A stretch of 64,000 nucleotides of DNA from Obelidium mucronatum (lineage: Eukaryota; Chytridiomycota; Chytridiomycetes; Chytridiales; Chytriomycetaceae): contig JAIVFH010000101.1 of NCBI GenBank assembly GCA_025765595.1, positions 54,838-118,837 on the forward strand. The letters are read 5' to 3'. Under the pieces are notes generated by a model. That model worked only from the letters and a program-made list of their open reading frames with translations. It was not told where the DNA came from and ran no database searches. Every line of letters begins with the position of its first letter. Within the stretch, counting starts at the first letter, position 1. The translations under genes and the position numbers were made by a program. Positions 17,526-28,728 of the stretch are shown here, piece after piece.

Positions 17526-17881
17526 TGTTTTTTGAAAAGATTTGGGACACTCGCTGATTAAATAGGGGCCATGTGACGAAATTTTTCTGGGGCTGTGCGC
17601 ACTATTCCTGTATACTGGCAGAAGTCTGGATTGTGATATTCATACGCTGGGTTCGATGGGAACAAGCTAAATTCCAATGGCAGCGAATACCAGATGTTTT
17701 GTTCTTTGGGCCAGGAAGCTGTTATCTGTGTAACAGTCCGCAATTTTTTGATACCCGTTGCATTTATGCTTTGTAAGCATGTATTCATCCATATAGAGGC
17801 GAACATGTATTTCAAAAACGGCAAAGGATATCGTCGGCGGGACGGGAATTAATTGATTTTGTACAACAGTCAATAAAAACT
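17526..17881. other. intergenic, left flank of the mobile element
   Basis: Promoter side of GH20-like copy 2 followed by about 300 bases without convincing coding sequence. The boundary to the mobile element is set at the CACAACAC motif at 17882; the target-site duplication was not identified. Confidence 0.45.
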
Positions 17882-18060
17882 CACAACACTGTTCGTTTGC
17901 ACCACACCTTATTGTTTTTTCGCAACACAATTTTTATCGCAGCACCTTTTTTTCGCAACACCACATTGATTTTTTCACACCGGTGTCTTTTTTTCTGTCA
18001 CCGATTTCTTTTTTTTCACACCAGTGTCTTTTTTTCTGTCAACGATTTCTTTTTTTTAAA
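17882..18060 (+). repeat. left terminal motif array of the mobile element
   Basis: Series of CACAACAC, CACACC, CGCAACAC, CAGCACC, CGCAACACC, CACACC units separated by T-rich spacers. The inner part contains a direct repeat of about 40 bases: TTTCACACCGGTGTC with its following T tract and CTGTCACCGATTTC (about 17972-18016) recurs with few changes (about 18011-18057). It also serves as leader of the integrase gene starting at 18062. Confidence 0.55.
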
Positions 18061-18061
18061 G

Positions 18062-19866
18062 ATGGATGAGATCAATGCACACCTGGACAACTTCATTGAC
18101 AATCATTTCCTGGATCCAGCGGATTTTGTTTCTGATGACGCAGGCGACATGGGTCCACAGGAAGAAATGGCATCCCATATCGCTCTTCAAGACTCTTTCG
18201 AACAGCATGCTCTCCTTCTTATTGGCCGATCGCGAAGGGCCATGATTCAGCATTCAACAGACCGCGACACTCTTCTTCAGTGTCAAACATTCATCGGAAC
18301 AATTCGGGACTATGCCAACATGAATCGACGGGTTTTGTCAGAGGAACTTGTCTCCGTTGTCATGCCCATTCTGGAACAAGAGATGAGAGCATTGGATATT
18401 TGCATTGCAAATGTTGAGGAGGAGATACGGAAGGTGTATGGCGGGAGGATTGCCGTTCAAGCAACCTACTCAGGACTCAGCGGTCGGCCTCGACTACTGA
18501 TTGATTTGGAAGAAGTCAACAAGCTGCGATCTCTTGGAGTCACTTGGGTCTTGATAGCTCAACTGGCTAATGTGACAACGAAAACTCTGAAGAAGCGAGT
18601 CTTTGAAAGCGGATTTATCGACCCATACAACTGGACTGACATCTCAGATGACGAACTATTATTGAAAGTTATTGCAATCAGAAATGAGTTCCCCAATTGT
18701 GGAGCTGATAGTATGATGAGCCACTTGAGAGTAAAATGTGGAGTGAGGGTTAGTCGAAAGCGCGTGCGAACCGCTCTCAAGCTAGCCGATCCGACCGGAG
18801 TCTTGAACCGGCTTGTAAAAACAATCGTAAGACGAAAGTACACTGTTGCTGGACCACATTCGTTGCAACACATTGATGGAAATCACAAACTGATACGCTG
18901 GAAGTTTGTTGTTCACGCGGGTCAGTTTTTCTTTGGTGTTGTATATCTGTCTTTAAACTCAAACTCTTGGCAGGAATTGATGGGTTCTCCCATTTAGTCA
19001 CATTTTGTGTGGTGTCAACAAACAATCGACCAGAAACGGTTTTGGAAGCGTTTCTTGGAGGAGTTGAAGCTCATGGATTGCCATCTCGAGTTCGAAGCGA
19101 CAAAGGTTAGTTATTGATGGGAGAATATCAACGATTTATCTTTGAAGCAGGGGGGGAAAATATTCTGGTGGCGGATTTCATGCTCCAACATAGGGGTACT
19201 GGTCGAGGATCCATCATTGCTGGGCGCTCTGTCCACAATCAACGTATTGAACGATTCAATCTGGACCTTCGTATTCAAGTGTTGGAATCGTTTATGTCCA
19301 TATTTCACCAGCTGGAGGGCCAAGGAGAGCTTGATATCAACAACGACCGTGAGCTCTGGGTGCTGCATCAAGTCTATCAACCTCGAATTCAGGAACGGCT
19401 TGACGAATTTGTTGCGTCACACAACGATCATAAAAAAAGAATGCACCGATATCTCACACCGAACCAGGTGTTTGCAGTCGGAATGGTTCTTCGGAATGGA
19501 TATTCTGGTCCGGGATCCGGACTTGACAATGCTTTAATTGACAACGAAGGAGTTGAGCGCTTTGGCGAAGATCCTCAGGGCCGCGCGCGAGCAGCCAGAG
19601 TTCCCGAAACGCAATTTGTTAATGATGGCGCAAACCATAGGCCGTATTCGAGGAAACATCGCGCTCGTGTGAGTCGGGTAAAATGTCCCCTGACGCCGGC
19701 TCAACTTTTGGAATTCACCCGAATCTGGCCGGCCAAATTTAGAGTTAATGACGGGCAAGACGGGAGATGCATATTCAGGGAATGCAAGCAAGCGGTCTGG
19801 GAAATGGTTGGACATGTTGAGAGGGACGAGGATTTTAACGAGAGCAGCGATGCCGAAAATGAGTAA
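18062..19866 (+). CDS. DDE/rve-type integrase-transposase
   Basis: Three exons (introns about 18921-18974 and 19106-19150). The N-terminal half is helical with an HTH-like stretch ([17 protein letters not shown]). The catalytic core reads [17 protein letters not shown] (first Asp), [19 protein letters not shown] (second Asp) and [16 protein letters not shown] (Glu); the last two acidic residues are separated by about 34 residues, the normal D,D(34/35)E spacing of retroviral-type integrases and IS3-like transposases. All three catalytic residues are present and the frame is open, so the enzyme may be functional. The [11 protein letters not shown] signature belongs to a group of integrase-core proteins scattered in fungi and animals. 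An AATAAA-like poly(A) signal follows at about 19890. It is the defining gene of the mobile element. Confidence 0.85.
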
Positions 19867-20188
19867 ATAGAAAGAGGTTTATTGGGCTATTCAATAAAAA
19901 ATTCATCACATTTGTATCATTCCTGCGAAGTTCCCTAACTATGCCTATAAGGGTGCACACCAATAGCACCTGCTTTTGATATGTGAAGATTCACTGGTTC
20001 AAATTTCAGACAGTCCTCGGGCGCCAGAATAAGAGTCGGCGGCTTTGAAGAAAGTCCCTGTATGCGATGTAGCGCGTGGAGAACACAGACTGATTTCCAA
20101 TTCCAATTGACAACGTTGACCAATTCCGATTTGTTCAAATGGCGAAACTTGGGACTTTCCAAAGCCACACAATGCTTTCGAATCTTTG

Positions 20189-20689
20189 AATGCCGACAGT
20201 TGCGCCGAAAGTGCAGCTGGTATTTAAATATAATGCCAGAGGACATCCATGTAAATTCGTCCAGGAGTTAGCGCGTGATATCCAGGGCAGTGATGCCATG
20301 GTTATGAGATGGGAAGTGGATTCGATGGTGACGTAAAGACCAGCTGCAGGTCCGTCAGGGAGCGGTCTTCGAGCACCTGAGAGGCCGTCAAGGCTGTCGA
20401 CGTGGCCGTCGACTCTAGCGCCAGCGCCACGCCCGCGATTGCAGTGTTGTCAAAGAAATTAACTATAAAAAAATATTATTATTATTATTCCAGCGTCGCG
20501 TCTCTTTCACAGGCAAACAAATCAACTGCCGAACTATGTCCAATTCCAGCAACTGTGCCCCGATTTCTAAGCAGATTTAAAGAAGTCAAAGATCGAAGTC
20601 GTACTAGCGCAGTCTCTATCACAATAGGAGACAGTCAGGCATATCAAGCACAGCACCTGCACAGCACCCTGCAACTTAGACACAAGTAA
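20189..20689 (+). CDS. small hypothetical protein of the mobile element
   Basis: Exon 1 starts MPTVAPKVQLVFKYNA and runs to a donor at about 20331 (GTAAAG); the acceptor TTATTCCAG at 20492 continues in frame (VASLSQANKSTAELCPIP) to the stop at 20687-20689. This gives about 110 residues with no domain I recognise. The intron (about 160 bases) has a GC-rich first part that can also be read on the other strand, so the model is tentative. The opposite strand (19935-20246) also has an open frame. Confidence 0.3.
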
Positions 20690-20904
20690 ACTATAATTTA
20701 TTTTAGAAATAATAATAAAAATCAATAGCCTAGGTCTTCAGAGGTCATCAGTGCGATGGGCGGGACGCGACTTTTTTTGGCTTTCAATCGTAAAAAAGAA
20801 AAATAACATATTTAAAATGCTTGGACACAATCAAAAGGCAAGTTGCCTGTATTCTACTTTAATAATGGCTGCCTGCAGTTTACTAAGTGTCTGTTACAAT
20901 TCTA

Positions 20905-22612
20905 GACCTTTCTCCTAGCCCGAATCGGCCTGATTAAGCACCCGGAAGTGGAGGACGAGCTCTCCGATGTCGATAGCAACAGCGACACATCGAAATTTGG
21001 CGACACAGACGAAAGGAGAGCCATTGATGAGGTGGGTTGCCCAGCCACTTCTCTTCTTCAAGCGGATGTGCTTTTTCTCCGAACTGGAGTATTGGCGAAG
21101 CCATGCGAAGTGACAAACCGTCTTTTGTCTTGTTGGATGTTCTTTGTTCCCAAACGAGAATAAAGGACTTAACTTGTGCTTTTTCTCCAAACGGAGTAAT
21201 TGCAAAGCCTTCCAAGCCGCTCTTTTATTCCGCGGTTTCTTTTTTACTCCTCTCTGATACTATTTTATTTCCAGCACTCTCGCGAGGATAGCTCCGGTTC
21301 CGATTACGATGGCAATTACGATGGCATGCTGGAGGAAGACTGGGATTTGGAGGAAGAGGAGGAGGAGATTAGTTTAACACTTCGGAAAAAACTGAAACGC
21401 CTAGGTACCGTTTTGTATCGCCCTAGAGTTTGAATTTTTAACCACTTTTATCTAGATGCGAATGAGGCGGTCAGTCTCACACCCATGCCCAATCCATACA
21501 TCAAGTACAAGCTGCCCCTGCCCGATATCCCGTATGCCGACCACTTCCCTTGCGTCGAAGATCGGAAACGCCACCAGCATGTTGTATTTGGTCTTTCCAA
21601 GTTACCGTGCTTCCGCTCCAACAAAAGTCACCAGTACTACAAAGAACGCCGCGCCTTCTATGGCCGATCCCCCCCTCAAACCAGTGCCCAAGCTCTACAA
21701 GAATTTGAAGAAGGGGTTCTTGTGTTTTCAATGGACGGCCATTTGGAACTTGCGGTCCTTCCTGAATTTCTAAACTGGATCTACTATACCGAAAAGCAGA
21801 GCGGTGTAGCGCTGGATCAAAGAACAAAGATTCCGGTCCACGTTCCAAATCAGTCCCTTAGTGCATTCCTGCAGTTTACAGCGTCCTTCAAGTCCCCTCC
21901 CCAGAAAATGGATTCTCGCCGCAAAGTATATTTCTCGCGCTTTGGCTGTGTCTTTTACCTTGGTTTGCGAGTGGCTCGGGGACAGTTCAAAAAAGGCTTA
22001 TTTGATGGCAACATCATTCCTTCTGTGGATTGTTCTGCCAGTCATGCAAGCAAAGCCTATGCCAAGTTCCGATACAACACCGCTCCTTTGATGCAAGCCA
22101 TGGGTATTATGTACGAAATTCTGGCTCCCGAAGCCTACAAACGCGACCGCCGTATTGTCGACTTTTACGCCAAAAGTACAATGCTGGATCATGCCAAAAC
22201 TACTACCCGGGAATTTAAGTTGATGAGGGCGATTGTTGTTTGCAATGAAGTGCAGTACCATTATGATACAAATGATGATTCTCATATCCTGGCGCTGTCT
22301 CCAATGACAGTCTTTGGTTATTTCTCCGGAGGAGATCTACTGCTGCCTGCGCTGGGTGCCAAGGTTAAATATAGGTCGGGCACCTATGTGTTGACAAGGC
22401 CTTTTCTATTTGAGCATAAGATAACCACCATTACAGGGCCTGAGTGTTTTGATGAGCAACATCTCGCTTGTCAATTCCTGAAAGCAAATTCTGGAAGCAA
22501 GGGATGGAGTATGACAATGGACGAAGTTCAAAAGCATGGGGTGAGGTTTGGTTTTGTCAATTACAATGAACATCTGGCTTCCACACATGCAATTAATGTT
22601 TTAAATGGATAA
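20905..22612 (+). CDS. 2OG-Fe(II) oxygenase-like protein (5' exon not found)
   Basis: Acidic N-terminal region (VEDELSDVDSNSDTSKF, DWDLEEEEEEISL) in two exons joined over introns at 21030-21273 and 21402-21456, then one long exon to the stop at 22610-22612. The C-terminal part has the layout of a double-stranded beta-helix dioxygenase: QYHYDTNDDSH gives the H-x-D iron ligands (His codon at 22259), followed by YFSGGDLLLPALGAKVKY with the typical G-G-x-L-x-x-P-x-L-G turn, then Y-x-x-G and FLFEHKITTITGPE, where the His would be the third ligand. Such oxygenases occur next to transposases in fungal genomes (TET/JBP-type families), but whether this one acts on DNA or protein is unknown. No ATG lies in frame in the first exon seen (20905), so an upstream exon is missing. 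A CAATAAAG poly(A) signal follows at 22622. Confidence 0.55.
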
Positions 22613-22959
22613 AAGTAAATGTCAATAAAGTTCAACTACCTTCAACACATTATTTATTGATCAAAGACTGGGCAAAGCGCACACGATCGCACACACGCAG
22701 ACGGTGCAGCGGCTTGTCGGGATGACAGAGACGCGCATGCGGCAAAGTGCGACTTGCTGAAGACGGCGCGGCTGTGGCTGGCGGCAGACACTGCGCCTGC
22801 AACACCGCCTGCGCTGCCGCATGCACTGCTGCTGAACAAAGTAGTGCGGCTTGTGCCTTCTTCGTTTTCTTTGACGACTGTCTTCTTCTTCTTTGACATT
22901 GTCTTCAACAAAATAGATTAAGAGTCTTCGTTGCTGCCGTTGTACAGGATAGGTAGTAG

Positions 22960-22960
<1 letters not shown>

Positions 22961-22987
<27 letters not shown>
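22961..22987. repeat. TG dinucleotide microsatellite
   Basis: About 13 uninterrupted TG units inside the spacer of the mobile element. Confidence 0.9.
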
Positions 22988-22991
<4 letters not shown>

Positions 22992-23053
22992 ATACACCGG
23001 TTCGACTACGACAGACGACTAGTGGCCAGGGTTGAACTATTGACAATAGGGAA

Positions 23054-23199
23054 CCTTCACCAGCGCGTCAATAATTGACAGCTCCACACGCGACAAAGCA
23101 AGGTAAGGAGAGTGGCGATAATAACCTTCAACAGCGTGCGTGTCAATAATCGACAGTTCCACGCGCGACAACGTAAGGTAAGGGAGAGCCGCGATAATA
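23054..23199. repeat. two-copy imperfect tandem repeat of about 71 bases
   Basis: Unit 1 begins CCTTCACCAGCGCGTCAATA at 23054, unit 2 begins CCTTCAACAGCGTGCGTGTC at 23125; both continue through a TCAATAAT-GACAG block, CCACACGCGACAA or CCACGCGCGACAA, AGGTAAGG and GCGATAATAA. A third unit would begin at 23200 but breaks off after CCTA. Confidence 0.8.
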
Positions 23200-23884
23200 A
23201 CCTAGTCAAGAGGAAGTCATTGCAAAAGTGAAGCAATCGACAAGTAGGAAGGATGGAGTTTTAAAACAGGCAATGATTGGGATAAAAAAAAAGAAAGGCC
23301 AAGGATGAAGAAAATAAGATTCACCAAAAATTTCAATCAAGTGGTGACTAGGTTTTGAAGCCTCGTCAACATGGGTGACTGTAATGGTGTAGTGCTTTGC
23401 GGAGTCATTTGAGGGTGGCAGAGATGGCGTTTTTTGTGCAGAAGCTGTAGAGGCTCTCTCCGCTAAACTCTCCTTGAGGCAGTTCTGGAACTCACGTACA
23501 CAGGAGTCCAATTTTTTGTGTGGGCATGTCAAAGATCACAGTGAGTGTCATTTGTTTCGTGGAATGTTCTCTCTTGCTCTTTCTAACACTTCTTTGTATT
23601 TATAACCGGAGTTAGTCTGAAACACGTGTTTCAGGTATTTCCTCCAGAACACACTAACGCCTCATTTCACACACTGATTCTAATTATACCATGGTCCACG
23701 AGTGAATACCATTCACAAGTCTTTCTTGTCAATTAAATTAGTGTGTTTGTTATATTCTACATACGATTTAGTGCACTAGAATAAGTTAGGATGTTGTGTG
23801 TATTGGATTAAGAGTCTTATCTCGTGTGTATACACATGAGATTTATTGACGACCAAATACCAACGTCATAATAACTGTCAGGGC

Positions 23885-24884
23885 ATGGGCTTGAGTGGTG
23901 GTCTGGGACTTCCTCTCCCTTGTGGACAGGTGTCATTTGCATTGGTGTTTATGTCTATAGGTGTGCGCAAGAAATGCGTGGCGCTGAAAGCCGGCGGCGG
24001 CGGGGGCGGCGGCTGTGCAGCGTGTGCAGCGCCGGGGTGCGGCGGCAACTGCAACTTTTCAACCATGACTTTGCTGGCAAGCAACGCAAGCAATGCTTAT
24101 CCAAACAACCACCCAAACAACCCCGCCCTGTCTGCCCTCAACTGCGTCGTCCATGTCTTTGACACCCCGCTCATTGACCACAAAGACCACTTTGCCTGGG
24201 ACCTCGAAGACGTCGACCTGATGCCAACAATCGGCAACTGGATGCTCGTGTACCAGTTGTGTACAAACAACGGCAAAAACAAACCCTTGTTCTACTCGTT
24301 CAATGCAGACAACTTCTTGAACTGGTTCTTTCAGCAAAAGCCCTTCTTTAGACTCATGCGATGTGCCATGGCTGCCTTCAACGCCGATCCTCCTCTTCCC
24401 GAAATTGTTGCCGTCAATTACTACTCTCGTGCCAGAAAGAGTGTTATTCACGCAATGACGGAGAAACCTACTCACCAATTGGTTGTGTATGTCTGTAACC
24501 ATTTTTTTTTTCTTTCTTCTGTTCTTGAAAGGCAGTTTTCTTTTCTTTTACAAATCTTGTATTCGCCGAAGGCGATGGATTCTTCTACTCAAAGCCAATC
24601 TTCATCTGTCTTGTTCTACTTCTTTCACCTTTGGCGAGTTTTGATCTCCTCGTTTCTACTTGCGGAGCATGTATTGGTCTGCGGAAGTAAGCTTGATGCC
24701 CACTGCCCCTTTGCCTGAGAGTCATAAGCTGCCTCTTAGCCACACAGCGTCTATCGGCTGTGATCGTCCGGTGCTGCATCACCTACCTATTATGATACTG
24801 TCTCTTTGGACTCAACCCACCTTTAGTGTAGGCACCAAAGCTATGATTAGTGGAAGCATCAACTCTATGATTTTGAATCAGTAA
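23885..24884 (+). CDS. hypothetical protein with hydrophobic segment, mobile-element passenger
   Basis: Exon 1 (23885-24488) begins MGLSGGLGLPLPCGQ, has a glycine run and a Cys-rich patch (CAACAAPGCGGNC), then a conserved-looking region (VFDTPLIDHKDHFAWDLEDV, NADNFLNWFFQQKPFFRLM, PEIVAVNYYSRARKSVIHAM). An intron at about 24489-24535 joins to a hydrophobic exon (PIFICLVLLLSPLASFDLLV, CGACIGLR); a second intron (24690-24742) leads to the last exon ending SINSMILNQ. The short introns restore one frame, which supports the model. About 300 residues; no family recognised. It lies between the oxygenase-like and HECT-like genes and converges with the latter. Confidence 0.5.
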
Positions 24885-24939
24885 GAACTATATTCAATTT
24901 AATTTTATTGAATAACAAAGGAAAAGGAGCCACTGTTCT

Positions 24940-27900
24940 TTATGCTTTGTTCAACATTCCAGCATCCCCACACAGAGCACCAATCATTGCAGATTCCATC
25001 AACTCCTTATCTGTGCAAACTGGCAAAGTCAAAAAGGAATTGCATGCTGCCACATTGATGGGAACAACGTCCTCAAATTGTCTAATATGATATCCACTGG
25101 AATCTGTTGTTCTTGCAGCTACTTCCTCCACTGTTTCCAACCCAACCTGTTCAATGATTCCAATGTTTTTACCTTTAAACAAAAGCTTGATTTTTTGGGC
25201 AGCAGGCAAGATATTGTGGCCCATGAGAGTCATCATGCTCTGCTGTAACTGCTTTGAATCCCATGTTCCCAAAATCTCAAAAACCAAATTCCAAGATTCT
25301 AATCTGTCCGTATCTTCAACCATAGGCTTCTTGGAGTGATCAAACAGGGCTATAAACTCTGCAGGAGTTGTGACCCTTATGGAAAGCAAGTGAACTGCCT
25401 CCAAAAGGCTGCTAGTATTGCTGCCGATAACGCTGCGAACTCCAATCCGAACAGAGGCCATATAGGGCTCTCTTTTCTTCACCAACTCAGTATGAATCAA
25501 AAATTGCTCCCAGTTTTCTTTGCAAGTGTAATCAATACAACCCTAAAGAGATTGTCATATTAATTTCATTGATTAATACTCAAAACCCTCTCACCACTGG
25601 TTCTGCTAGTCCTGCTTGACTCATGTAGAGATTCATCAACTCCAGATCTTCTGGATTGTCTCTCGACAATTGAAATGTACCTAGAAACCCAGGTTTCAAA
25701 TCCAAAACCATCTGCTTGGTGTACATAGTCAGAGGTGCCTCCAAACAGTTGAGGAGAAACGCCGGAGACAATGCCTCATCAATTGCAACGACAAAGCCGG
25801 CTTGAAGGAATGATACTCCTATACACTGATAAAATTGATTTAATGAATTTCAAATCTCCAACCTCTACATACATAACCAAGCTGTTCCAGCTGTCCTCCA
25901 TTGATGTTTCGAGTTGGAGACTGTAGGAGTGATTTCACATGACGGCAATGTGCTTCACCCTCAAACATAATATTGCTGGATGTGTATGTGCTTTGCATAT
26001 GTCTATGGCTCCTCGCCCACGCAGCTCCTTTACTATCAACTATCACTCGACCATCCACTGAATAATCCAACTTGAGCTGCTTTGAGACAACCCTTAAGAA
26101 AGTCTCTTCCTCAAAAAGCTGATGGAATAATTGATGGTAATCAGAATTCACCGAACTTCCCGAAACTTCAAACCAATGAGAATCCAAAGGATCCAACTCC
26201 ATTCTTTGGCATATACTAGCCCGATGTTCACTGAAGACATCCAAGGTGACAGATGTTGGGTTAACCCCATCACCAGCTGCAGTTTCAACTGGAGGCAAGC
26301 CGTCTGGGTCCAGACCACTGTCTGTTAGATCAATGACAGAAACAGCAGCAAGCCCTTGAGGGGCAGAGGCTCGAAGTATTGTTGTCCTTCAATTGTAGTA
26401 CCAGAAGTTGAATCAGCCAGCACAGAGCCACCTGCGGATTGAGAATATCTTGCAGTTGGAGACAGTGGCTCTTGGGCAACATTAAAATCCAACAGCATTG
26501 TAGCAGCACTCAGTGTCTTGGGAGTACGCTCCAGACTTCCACTGGTACTGGCACATGCTTCAATATTGCTGTCATTGGATTGGAGGGGCAACATAGCAAA
26601 GACCAGTTCGTTTGAGTCAACGAACTCACTATCACTGAATTCAAAGTCTCCAGATCCCAGCATCTGGATTTCTCGTCGTCTTTGGCAGGTTTTGGGTGGG
26701 GTCAAGGTCACCTGGAAGTTGGATTGATTGTTGACCCTCACAGATTTCGTTTGGAAAGTCTTCGTACTCTGCCAAAACACTTTCAACTTTGGTATAATCA
26801 CCTAACCATATGTTAGTCTTCAAGTCTGCCAAAAAAGGGACTTTTGACTTACCCTGAGGTTCCCCAACACTGATAAAGACCTGGTTCTCTCTTCCATTGT
26901 AAACGCAATTCATCGCTTCCATGCCCACGATCACAGGGGCCTCTGGATCTTCATCAGCAGTCAAAGGAGGGAGCACATACTGATAAACTTGAGGGTTTGT
27001 TTGTCCCAGGAACAAGTAGTAGCAGGGTGAATACTTTGATCGGCCCTTTTTGACCACTCCCGAAAACTTTTTTAGAAACACTAGTTTGTTTCCTTCAGAT
27101 TCCAGTCCCAGCCGATCACAGGCAGTGGTTGCAAATTCCACCACTTTGGCAAGAAGTTGGTCTTTTGTAACAAATACTGAATGTTGAACAAGTCTGAAGT
27201 CTTTCAATGTCTGTGTTCTGAAATACAGCATTGAATAAATTGCCAATCAATAAAAAACTACAATTCACCTGGTACAATCATCATAAGGAGCCACATATGC
27301 AGTATGTTGAACATTGTCGGCATCGGCAAGCAGAACCGGGTCCACAAAAGTCAGAATATACTCCCGTACCACAGGTTTGATTAAACGACTTTTTGTTATC
27401 GGCTTTGCGGCAAGTCGTTTGGAAGGTCTGGAGTGCTTGACGCTGGCGGATGGTCCTGAGCTCAGTAATCCCAATGTTTGCCCTACTGATGATCTAGACA
27501 CTGCAAGCCTCTGAGACTGAATGGGATCAACAAAGTGGCTGTTCGGCTGAGGATAATTGCCAAATGTTGACAATCGCTCGGCAGCGGCATTCCCAGCTGG
27601 TAGCACAGGTGCCAGGGGAACCGGCAAGGGAGGAAGCTGGCCAACCCTGTTTGAGAAGGAGTTTGAAATACTTTGCGCCTGTTAGTATTACAAATGAGAA
27701 AAAAAGGGAAAGTGTAAAAATACATTGATTCGTACATTGACTCCGCACGAGCCGGCGTTCCTCTGCTTTGCGGCAACTCCATAGCTCCCAACACTGTCGC
27801 AGTGGATGTGGCAGCCATAACACTAAAGGAAAAAAGACTTTAAATAAAAAAGTTAATCCACACTACAACAATCACCTTTGCAGCGGAACCGTTGCAACCA

Positions 27901-28534
27901 CAGTCGACATTCCTTGGTCAGATCTGATCAATAACCTTCCAGCCGGCCGACTTGTAACCCTTGTTGCAGGGCTTGCTGCCGCTTGCGCTTCATGAGCCCT
28001 GGAGACGTTGTTAAAAAGAAATAATTTAAACAGACGCAGATAAGCAACTAACCTCCGAACACAGTCTGAACAAAGCCCAAAGTACAGTAAATTGGGCATA
28101 AACATCCCACTGCATGTCCCTGAACATGGTTTGTGGCCTCCGTTGAACATTCTCCAGTTTTAATTTGAAAAAGGCAAATTGAATGTCCAGACAGAAAATC
28201 CTCGGGGATTTAATCGGGGGTTTTCAATGGCCATCTGCTGTCGATCATCTGCCGTCGATCTTTCAGGAAACGTGGGATGAATCGGCTGAACGACGGCAGG
28301 GGTAAAAACGTTGACATCAATGTTGACGGAATCCCAGCATTGACGCTTCGATTTTCCAGGCCAGCAAAACTCAGTGGCATTCATGGCAGGTCTATCACCA
28401 ATAAAGAATGTTCAATAGAGTTCATAACGGCAAGTCCAATTCTCTTACCATGTCAAAATATTCGTCCCCTTGGGTTTGCGGCTGGTGTGGCTCCGGATTT
28501 TGGTGTTGCTCTTGATTTTGGTGTTGCGAAAACA
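24940..28534 (-). CDS. HECT-like ubiquitin ligase protein with N-terminal Cys cluster, mobile-element passenger
   Basis: Minus-strand gene of about ten exons starting just inside the right terminal array. N terminus Gln-rich (MFSQHQNQEQHQ), then a small Cys cluster (GGHKPCSGTCSG, FGLCSDCVRR) that may bind zinc, a low-complexity linker, and a conserved middle part (FLKKFSGVVKKGRSKYSPCYY, PVIVGMEAMNCVYNGRENQV). The last three exons fit the HECT C lobe in order: GVSFLQAGFVVAIDEALSPA, GFLGTFQLSRDNPEDLELMN, then near the end VVPINVAACNSFLTLPVCTD with the Cys at the place of the catalytic residue, and KELMESAMIGAL before a short tail. HECT enzymes take ubiquitin onto that Cys before transferring it to a substrate. 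A normal HECT ends within a few residues of the aromatic after the helix, as here. Exon junctions near 26640-26720 are inferred from frame. Confidence 0.6.
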
Positions 28535-28627
28535 TTTTCGGTGGTGTGAAGAACCATCTGGGTGTTGGGAAAAATGAAAAATGTTGCGCGTCTTTTTTTC
28601 TTGGTGTGAAAAGATAAATGTGTTGTG
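28535..28627 (-). repeat. right terminal motif array of the mobile element
   Basis: Read on the minus strand from 28627: CACAACAC, 11 bases, CACACC, 12 bases, CGCGCAACA, T-rich spacer, CAACACC. Order and spacing mirror the left end at 17882. It is also the leader of the HECT-like gene. Confidence 0.55.
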
Positions 28628-28728
28628 CAAAATAAATGTGTGTAGGTCATTTTTAATTTTTTCCCACACGGCCTGCCATAAAAGGATGGGCAAACGAATG
28701 TAAGTATTGCGACAAAAAACCCAGAGAA

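Follow-up and report, generated by a model that had tools for sequence, protein, structure and literature searches.

The 64,000-nucleotide stretch of the genome of Obelidium mucronatum, a chytrid of the Chytriomycetaceae, that was analysed here (contig C101, positions 54838-118837, hereafter the window) contains one real DNA transposon of 10,852 bp, within which an inward-pointing DDE transposase gene, a gene for a predicted TET/JBP-type 2-oxoglutarate-dependent oxygenase and an inward-pointing HECT-like gene are enclosed. On account of its transposase match, its termini and its 6-bp target-site duplication the element is assigned to IS3EU, and we read it as an IS3EU transposon that carries a TET/JBP-type anti-silencing oxygenase and a diverged HECT-type ligase as accessory genes, a reading to which we would give a probability of roughly 0.7. 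The genome searched was the 48.3-Mb assembly in 694 contigs, contigs being referred to by C-numbers, and positions given without a contig are those of the window.

That these genes form a single mobile unit, as had been proposed in the initial annotation of the window, is confirmed by the ends of the element, by the duplication that flanks it and by the recurrence of the gene order at a second locus, on C124. The termini are TATCG...CCATA and are bordered on both sides by a perfect AAAGGA; read inward, the two ends are TATCGTCGGCGGGACGGGAA and TATGGCAGGCCGTGTGGGAA, which agree at 15 of the 24 outermost positions, a level equalled by 2 of 20,000 random pairs. When a 300 x 300 grid of candidate ends was examined, a single pair (17829/28680) combined TA..TA termini with a perfect 6-bp duplication. 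At the nucleotide level a copy on C182 aligns from 17829 and a copy on C140 aligns up to 28680, the flanks changing at exactly those bases, each of these two copies having one element end in the DNA examined; the copy on C124 aligns from 18021 to 28669, hence leaves the base-exact ends unconfirmed by that copy, and has TATGG just outside the alignment on its right. The ends had initially been placed at 17882 and 28627, with alignment of several copies suggested as the way to find the exact ends and the duplication. This alignment delivered ends to the base with AAAGGA on both sides, and the former positions are rejected, as the true ends lie 53 bp farther out; the CACAACAC stretches that mark 17882 and 28627 prove to be subterminal repeats, located 53 bp inside each end and mutually in register.

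The left-hand gene had been described as an intact DDE integrase pointing inward, and it proved to be so: three exons spanning 18062-19866 form an open frame of 568 amino acids matching the Pfam family rva_4 with an expect value (E) of 2.2e-67, together with a weak match to HTH_21. From a reading of the translated protein, the DDE catalytic residues are predicted to lie in HIDGNH, SDKG and HNQRIER, and no family of HHCC-type zinc fingers is among its Pfam matches. A protein search scored 7,990 candidates, of which 1,117 passed as relatives at E <= 0.001, the nearest among the 120 matches listed belonging to the chytrids Podochytrium (53%) and Rhizoclosmatium (46%). IS3EU is preferred to IS481EU because of the termini and the duplication; according to the text of PMC10045372, the termini are TA..TA in every complete IS3EU family, and the duplications are usually of 6 bp.

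In the search of the genome itself the left part of the element was found again on C182 (97%) and C124 (98%); C140 (90%), C124 and C38 matched the right part. Transposase, TET-like gene and HECT-like gene share one order and orientation at two loci, the window and C124. The expectation that copies would keep the genes together is therefore borne out by C124 but not by C182 and C140, both of which stop between the genes: the partial copy on C182 comprises the left end and the transposase, and that on C140 comprises the HECT-like gene and the right end, beyond which it passes into apparent retroelement frames. On C124 a retroelement, Copia-like by its frames, separates the transposase from the TET-like gene, which is itself broken; the partial copy on C38 holds one piece of the TET-like gene and two of the HECT-like gene, with no transposase match on that contig. 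The element lies between ordinary genes, as had been stated from the start: its left neighbour is a GH20 gene (Pfam E = 2.5e-25), its right neighbour a SNAP-like gene (E = 6.2e-7). The coordinates of all features are collected in Table 1.

Table 1. Features of the element in the window, with stretches of a sister family on other contigs.
Feature	Position	Strand	Basis or remark
Whole IS3EU element, 10,852 bp	17829..28680	+	C182 copy begins at 17829, C140 copy stops at 28680, flanks differ
Target-site duplication AAAGGA, 6 bp, left copy	17823..17828	.	Same letters as 28681-28686
Target-site duplication AAAGGA, 6 bp, right copy	28681..28686	.	Perfect match to left copy
Left terminal inverted repeat, imperfect	17829..17864	+	21 of 36 positions agree with right end
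Right terminal inverted repeat, TATGGCAGGCCG... in inward reading	28645..28680	-	Comparison with left end
Left subterminal repeats, CACAACAC and TTTTTTCACACC-type units	17882..18055	+	
Transposase exon 1	18062..18920	+	GT-AG introns, reading frame
Transposase exon 2	18974..19105	+	GT-AG introns, reading frame
Transposase exon 3	19151..19866	+	GT-AG introns, reading frame
Probable upstream exons of TET-like gene, acidic N-terminal part	20900..21404	+	Borders predicted; N-terminus of paralogue P0003 similar
TET/JBP-like 2-oxoglutarate oxygenase, main exon, open, HxD...H kept	21437..22612	+	
Fragment of host multigene family, passenger open reading frame	23840..24718	+	Genome-wide matches
HECT-like C-lobe exon, Cys motif ACNSFLTLP	24943..25542	-	Pfam HECT match
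HECT-like gene span, possible start codon at 27818	24940..27818	-	Deposited model P0001 begins near 28150
Sister family stretches	C15:381501-386500, C15:379500-381500, C45:213900-215900		Histone-H3-like gene; F-box-like open reading frame (C15)

An oxygenase-like gene had also been placed inside the element, and this stands, the main exon being open and of TET/JBP type by profile. We assign the protein to this type because of a profile bridge through the Tet_JBP genes of the same genome, the behaviour of shuffled profiles and the alignment of the putative active site. When an hhalign profile of the window oxygenase and two paralogues was compared with a profile of three Tet_JBP genes from this genome, one of which exceeds Pfam's cut-off, the match reached a probability of 93.7% and E = 1.8e-7 (for one comparison) over 60 columns, a result equalled by none of 100 column shuffles, and the HYD...EHK of the oxygenase came to stand opposite the HRD...DHK of the Tet_JBP genes; as a control, the oxygenase profile compared with a HECT profile gave 0.3%. 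The genome-wide search for the Tet_JBP family found eight places (two on C41 and one each on C21, C39, C23, C204, C225 and C240), one of them over the cut-off, and a protein search with the window oxygenase matched five of the weaker ones (E from 8e-5 to 6e-4; 36-37% across some 60 residues). The Tet_JBP genes from C39, C41 and C23 hardly differ in sequence, and are therefore perhaps located inside mobile elements themselves.

Relatives of the TET-like protein outside Obelidium were absent from the protein search, its two matches both being from Obelidium. Within the genome, relatives are found on C194 (62%) and C76 (61%), in a repeated unit that is 98.7% identical over 2.3 kb, to the limit of the C76 DNA compared. 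This lineage of TET genes is probably not confined to one setting, since around C194 searches with the window HECT-like protein and two chytrid transposases gave no real match (one at E = 0.54) and revealed neither an IS3EU transposase nor a HECT-like gene. A frame beside these two paralogues presumably recalls Ulp1 proteases, and a Pfam scan of it returned no match.

The gene at the other end had been annotated as HECT-like and inward-pointing; its orientation, on the minus strand, is upheld, but its frames are broken when compared with the C140 copy and its HECT identity is no more than probable. Its last exon, of 200 residues, has HECT as its sole Pfam match (E = 0.084, 12.9 bits), positions 145-302 of the 306 of the profile being aligned to residues 14-195, in register to the C-terminus. 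The HECT family has the Cys motif TCxNxLxLP; the window gene has ACNSFLTLP at this place and the copies on C140 and C124 have ACNAFLTLP, and a Cys motif of the HECT type is also seen in the HECT proteins of the genome itself, with a spacing comparable to that in the window exon. The N-lobe of the third gene is unrecognised by Pfam. Sequence searches of the PDB with the TET-like and HECT-like alignments gave no match, and one with the HECT-like last exon gave a single match to a ribosomal protein (E = 1.5), which was taken as chance. A deposited O. mucronatum protein, BDR26DRAFT_948833, is 99% identical to the HECT-like query, and the protein search found no relatives outside Obelidium (two matches, both Obelidium). 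The frame breaks relative to C140 fall at about 26.3 to 26.75 kb, upstream of the last exon; the C140 gene has a frame break of its own, and C124 is without the stretch corresponding to about 26138-27628.

Further evidence on the third gene may be drawn from a sister IS3EU family, copies of which on C313, C15 and C45 are 94-97% identical over the transposase part and whose transposase is 41-42% identical to that of the window. In this family a minus-strand third gene follows directly after the transposase, with no TET gene between them, and is related to the window HECT-like gene by tblastn (E = 0.001, in a search of one contig) and by hhalign (probability 61%, E = 7.9e-5 for one comparison). 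When compared by hhalign with five HECT proteins from the same genome, the sister family alone, and likewise both families pooled, gave a match that 1 of 100 shuffles equalled. As no TET gene separates the HECT-like gene from the adjacent transposase in the sister family, the HECT-like gene seems to be the older partner, and we infer that the TET gene was inserted later between it and the transposase. The right end of the sister family, ...GGCTGACCATA (...CCATA), is the same in all three copies, with different flanks; the left end, TACCGTCAGCCG..., was found in one of the two copies searched, that on C15, and was not seen in the C45 stretch examined. The outermost bases around the C15 copy, CCGTTC on the left versus CTGTTC on the right, form an imperfect duplication.

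A number of results weigh against the reading of the element given here. Pfam's Tet_JBP family scored the window oxygenase at E = 0.0028 and 17.3 bits, below the cut-off of 34.9, and was matched by one of the three members of the window oxygenase alignment, and the window gene is missing from the eight places found genome-wide. The HECT match of the last exon is likewise under the Pfam cut-off (12.9 versus 23.9 bits) and is lost when longer pieces, or one shorter piece, are scanned, and neither the window gene nor its copies are listed among the 36 places (E <= 10) of the genome-wide HECT search. When the window family was compared by itself, its hhalign match to the five HECT proteins was equalled by 43 of 100 shuffles, and the hhalign match between the two third genes ends before the Cys. 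AlphaFold2 gave a mean predicted local distance difference test score (pLDDT) of 28 on the TET-like protein and on the HECT-like protein, and among the copies seen none has all three genes intact, the HECT-like gene being broken in the window and the TET-like gene on C124. The sister family has a candidate Cys motif, STCFSNVNV, in all three copies, which is unaligned with the window motif in the profile comparison. As the HECT match is under the cut-off and dependent on the length scanned, and as the window family gives no profile signal of its own while the sister family reaches 1 in 100 shuffles, it is probable, not proven, that the third gene encodes a HECT-type protein.

The HECT scores that are under the cut-offs or absent, and the window-family profile at shuffle level, would also be accounted for if the third gene were a strongly diverged alpha-kinase or had some other fold, its resemblance to HECT being due to chance. 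This we consider possible, though the less probable identity; in its favour, the gene agrees in position and orientation with the alpha-kinase of the elements reported in the text of PMC12730594. Against it, scans of the third gene gave no Pfam match to an alpha-kinase, the sole Pfam match of the C-terminal exon is to HECT, in register to the end and with the Cys motif present, and the sister gene compared with the HECT profile is equalled by 1 shuffle in 100.

All three genes are under constraint between copies. The ratio of nonsynonymous to synonymous substitution rates (dN/dS) is 0.54 against C182 and 0.55 against C124 for exon 1 of the transposase, and 0.06 against each of them for exon 3, where 617 of 711 bases could be aligned to the C182 piece, which has a 36-base insertion. 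For the TET-like gene it is 0.18 against C124, with one stop skipped, 0.21 against C38 and 0.15 for the 3' part against C124, silent sites being saturated in the comparison with C194, and for the HECT-like exon it is 0.11 (C140), 0.10 (C124) and 0.15 (C38). Silent divergence (dS) differs by module: it is 0.03 for the first exon of the transposase and 0.13-0.15 for the third, 0.17-0.19 for the HECT-like exon and 0.21-0.30 for the TET-like gene, a roughly tenfold spread which suggests that pieces were exchanged by recombination between copies.

These values are also relevant to the view that the TET-like and HECT-like genes are passengers picked up from host DNA, with no role in transposition, which we regard as unlikely. 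A fragment of a host gene (23.84-24.72 kb) is indeed carried inside the element, the accessory genes are broken in some copies, and the unequal divergence of the modules (dS 0.03 in transposase exon 1 versus 0.17-0.30 in the HECT-like and TET-like genes) points to pieces possibly having been exchanged; however, dN/dS values of 0.10-0.21 between copies for both accessory genes, the presence of related third genes in two families of IS3EU whose transposases are 41-42% identical, and the recurrence of a TET paralogue in a repeated unit elsewhere (C194, C76) all argue against mere passengers. The open reading frame (ORF) at 23840-24718 matches 59 genome stretches at E <= 1 and 49 at E <= 0.001, itself included, the closest other match being 85% on C34. 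No nucleotide match to 23471-24699 was found in the C124 or C140 DNA compared; past the end of the TET-like gene, 1.15 kb common to C140 and C124 is missing from the window, which has the ORF-bearing stretch in its place. This ORF had initially been counted as an unrecognised hydrophobic protein belonging to the core of the element, a proposal that is rejected, the ORF being a host-family fragment unmatched in C124 and C140. The family to which it belongs is large, partly clustered and without a Pfam match, many of its members being located on C34, C67, C213, C2 and C4.

That the whole cluster is chance debris of several elements is very improbable and is rejected, for although nested or rearranged copies exist (C124, C140, C38) and those on C182 and C140 are partial, the perfect duplication and the terminal repeats refute it for the outer borders, other copies begin or stop at the terminal bases, and C124 repeats the gene order.

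The sister family carries other genes again: the interval from the left end to the transposase of the C15 copy holds a histone-H3-like gene together with an F-box-like ORF, the latter scoring under the cut-off (E = 0.05). The histone-H3-like gene matches Pfam Histone at E = 9.4e-22 in the C45 protein, and in C15 it is spread over two frames and contains a stop. Long-tailed H3-like relatives, 47-50% identical, were seen on C2, C202 and C10. The presence of a histone-like gene in the sister family suggests that IS3EU elements collect chromatin genes repeatedly. We tentatively extend this to the idea, which is still some way from being the probable one, that chytrid IS3EU elements transport a set of chromatin and ubiquitin genes which can be swapped around a standing HECT-type ligase partner; were this true, one family would add a TET-type oxygenase and the sister family (C15, C45, C313) histone-H3-like and F-box-like genes, and the element would itself bring what is needed to alter or erase the silencing marks of its host.

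If the element is, as we prefer to read it, an IS3EU transposon with an anti-silencing oxygenase and a HECT-type ligase, its DDE transposase would recognise the TATCG/TATGG terminal repeats, and probably also the CACAACAC subterminal repeats, and would cut and re-insert the element, leaving behind a 6-bp duplication such as the one seen at its borders. The oxygenase, by its family and its active-site residues, would most likely oxidise methylated bases on the element (5-methylcytosine, 5mC, possibly N6-methyladenine, 6mA), and such oxidation would counter its methylation-based silencing, a relief also proposed, without experiment, for the elements described in the text of PMC12730594. Because symmetric 6mA is reported, in the account given by PMC13297926, to serve early-diverging fungi as a regulatory mark, the choice between 5mC and 6mA as substrate is a directly testable question. 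The diverged HECT-type ligase, the gene of which is under purifying selection, may mark for turnover either a silencing protein of the host or the element's own transposase. We infer an action of the accessory genes on host silencing or on the transposase, and their combination may help the element to escape host silencing.

Transposons of the Kyakuja and Zisupton groups with TET/JBP genes in mushrooms were reportedly the subject of earlier work in PNAS in 2014. As DNA transposons with a TET/JBP oxygenase, which the text of PMC12730594 also describes from mushrooms, they resemble the window element, but their transposase is of another superfamily, the window element being IS3EU by its transposase match and ends. 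With the IS3EU/GingerRoot superfamily, as presented in PMC10045372, the element shares TA..TA termini, a 6-bp duplication and a DDE transposase without an HHCC finger, and it differs in adding the TET-like and HECT-like genes. The last exon of the third gene resembles HECT E3 ligases (PF00632) in its C-lobe-like sequence and in its terminal Cys motif and spacing, whereas the gene scores below the Pfam cut-off and has an unrecognised N-lobe.

The initial annotation knew of no described element with such a set of genes, a statement that no longer holds: IS3EU transposons with TET genes, published in December 2025, are described from seven rusts and Tuber indicum in the text of PMC12730594 (Kojima 2025), with the TET gene placed between the transposase and an oppositely oriented alpha-kinase gene. 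These elements and those of the window and C124 have in common an IS3EU transposase, a 6-bp duplication and a TET gene before an inward third gene; the termini of the rust elements, given there as TAYGG..CCRTA, fit the right end of TATCG..CCATA and differ from its left end. They differ further in the third gene, an alpha-kinase there and HECT-like here, set apart by Pfam scans, and in the host, here a chytrid. The words "chytrid", "HECT" and "ubiquitin" have no occurrences in the main text of PMC12730594. The literature found, with most subscription journals and the Repbase entries outside the search, held no IS3EU element with a HECT gene, and the literature search gave no relevant report of HECT ligases in TET/JBP or other DNA transposons and no report on transposons of O. 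mucronatum. As far as that search reaches, the architecture is known in outline, and the novelty lies in the chytrid host and in the HECT-like partner: the range of transposon-borne TET/JBP genes now includes a chytrid, beyond the three lineages of fungi treated in the text of PMC12730594, and a TET/JBP gene on a transposon is tied to a ubiquitin-ligase-like partner in place of a kinase.

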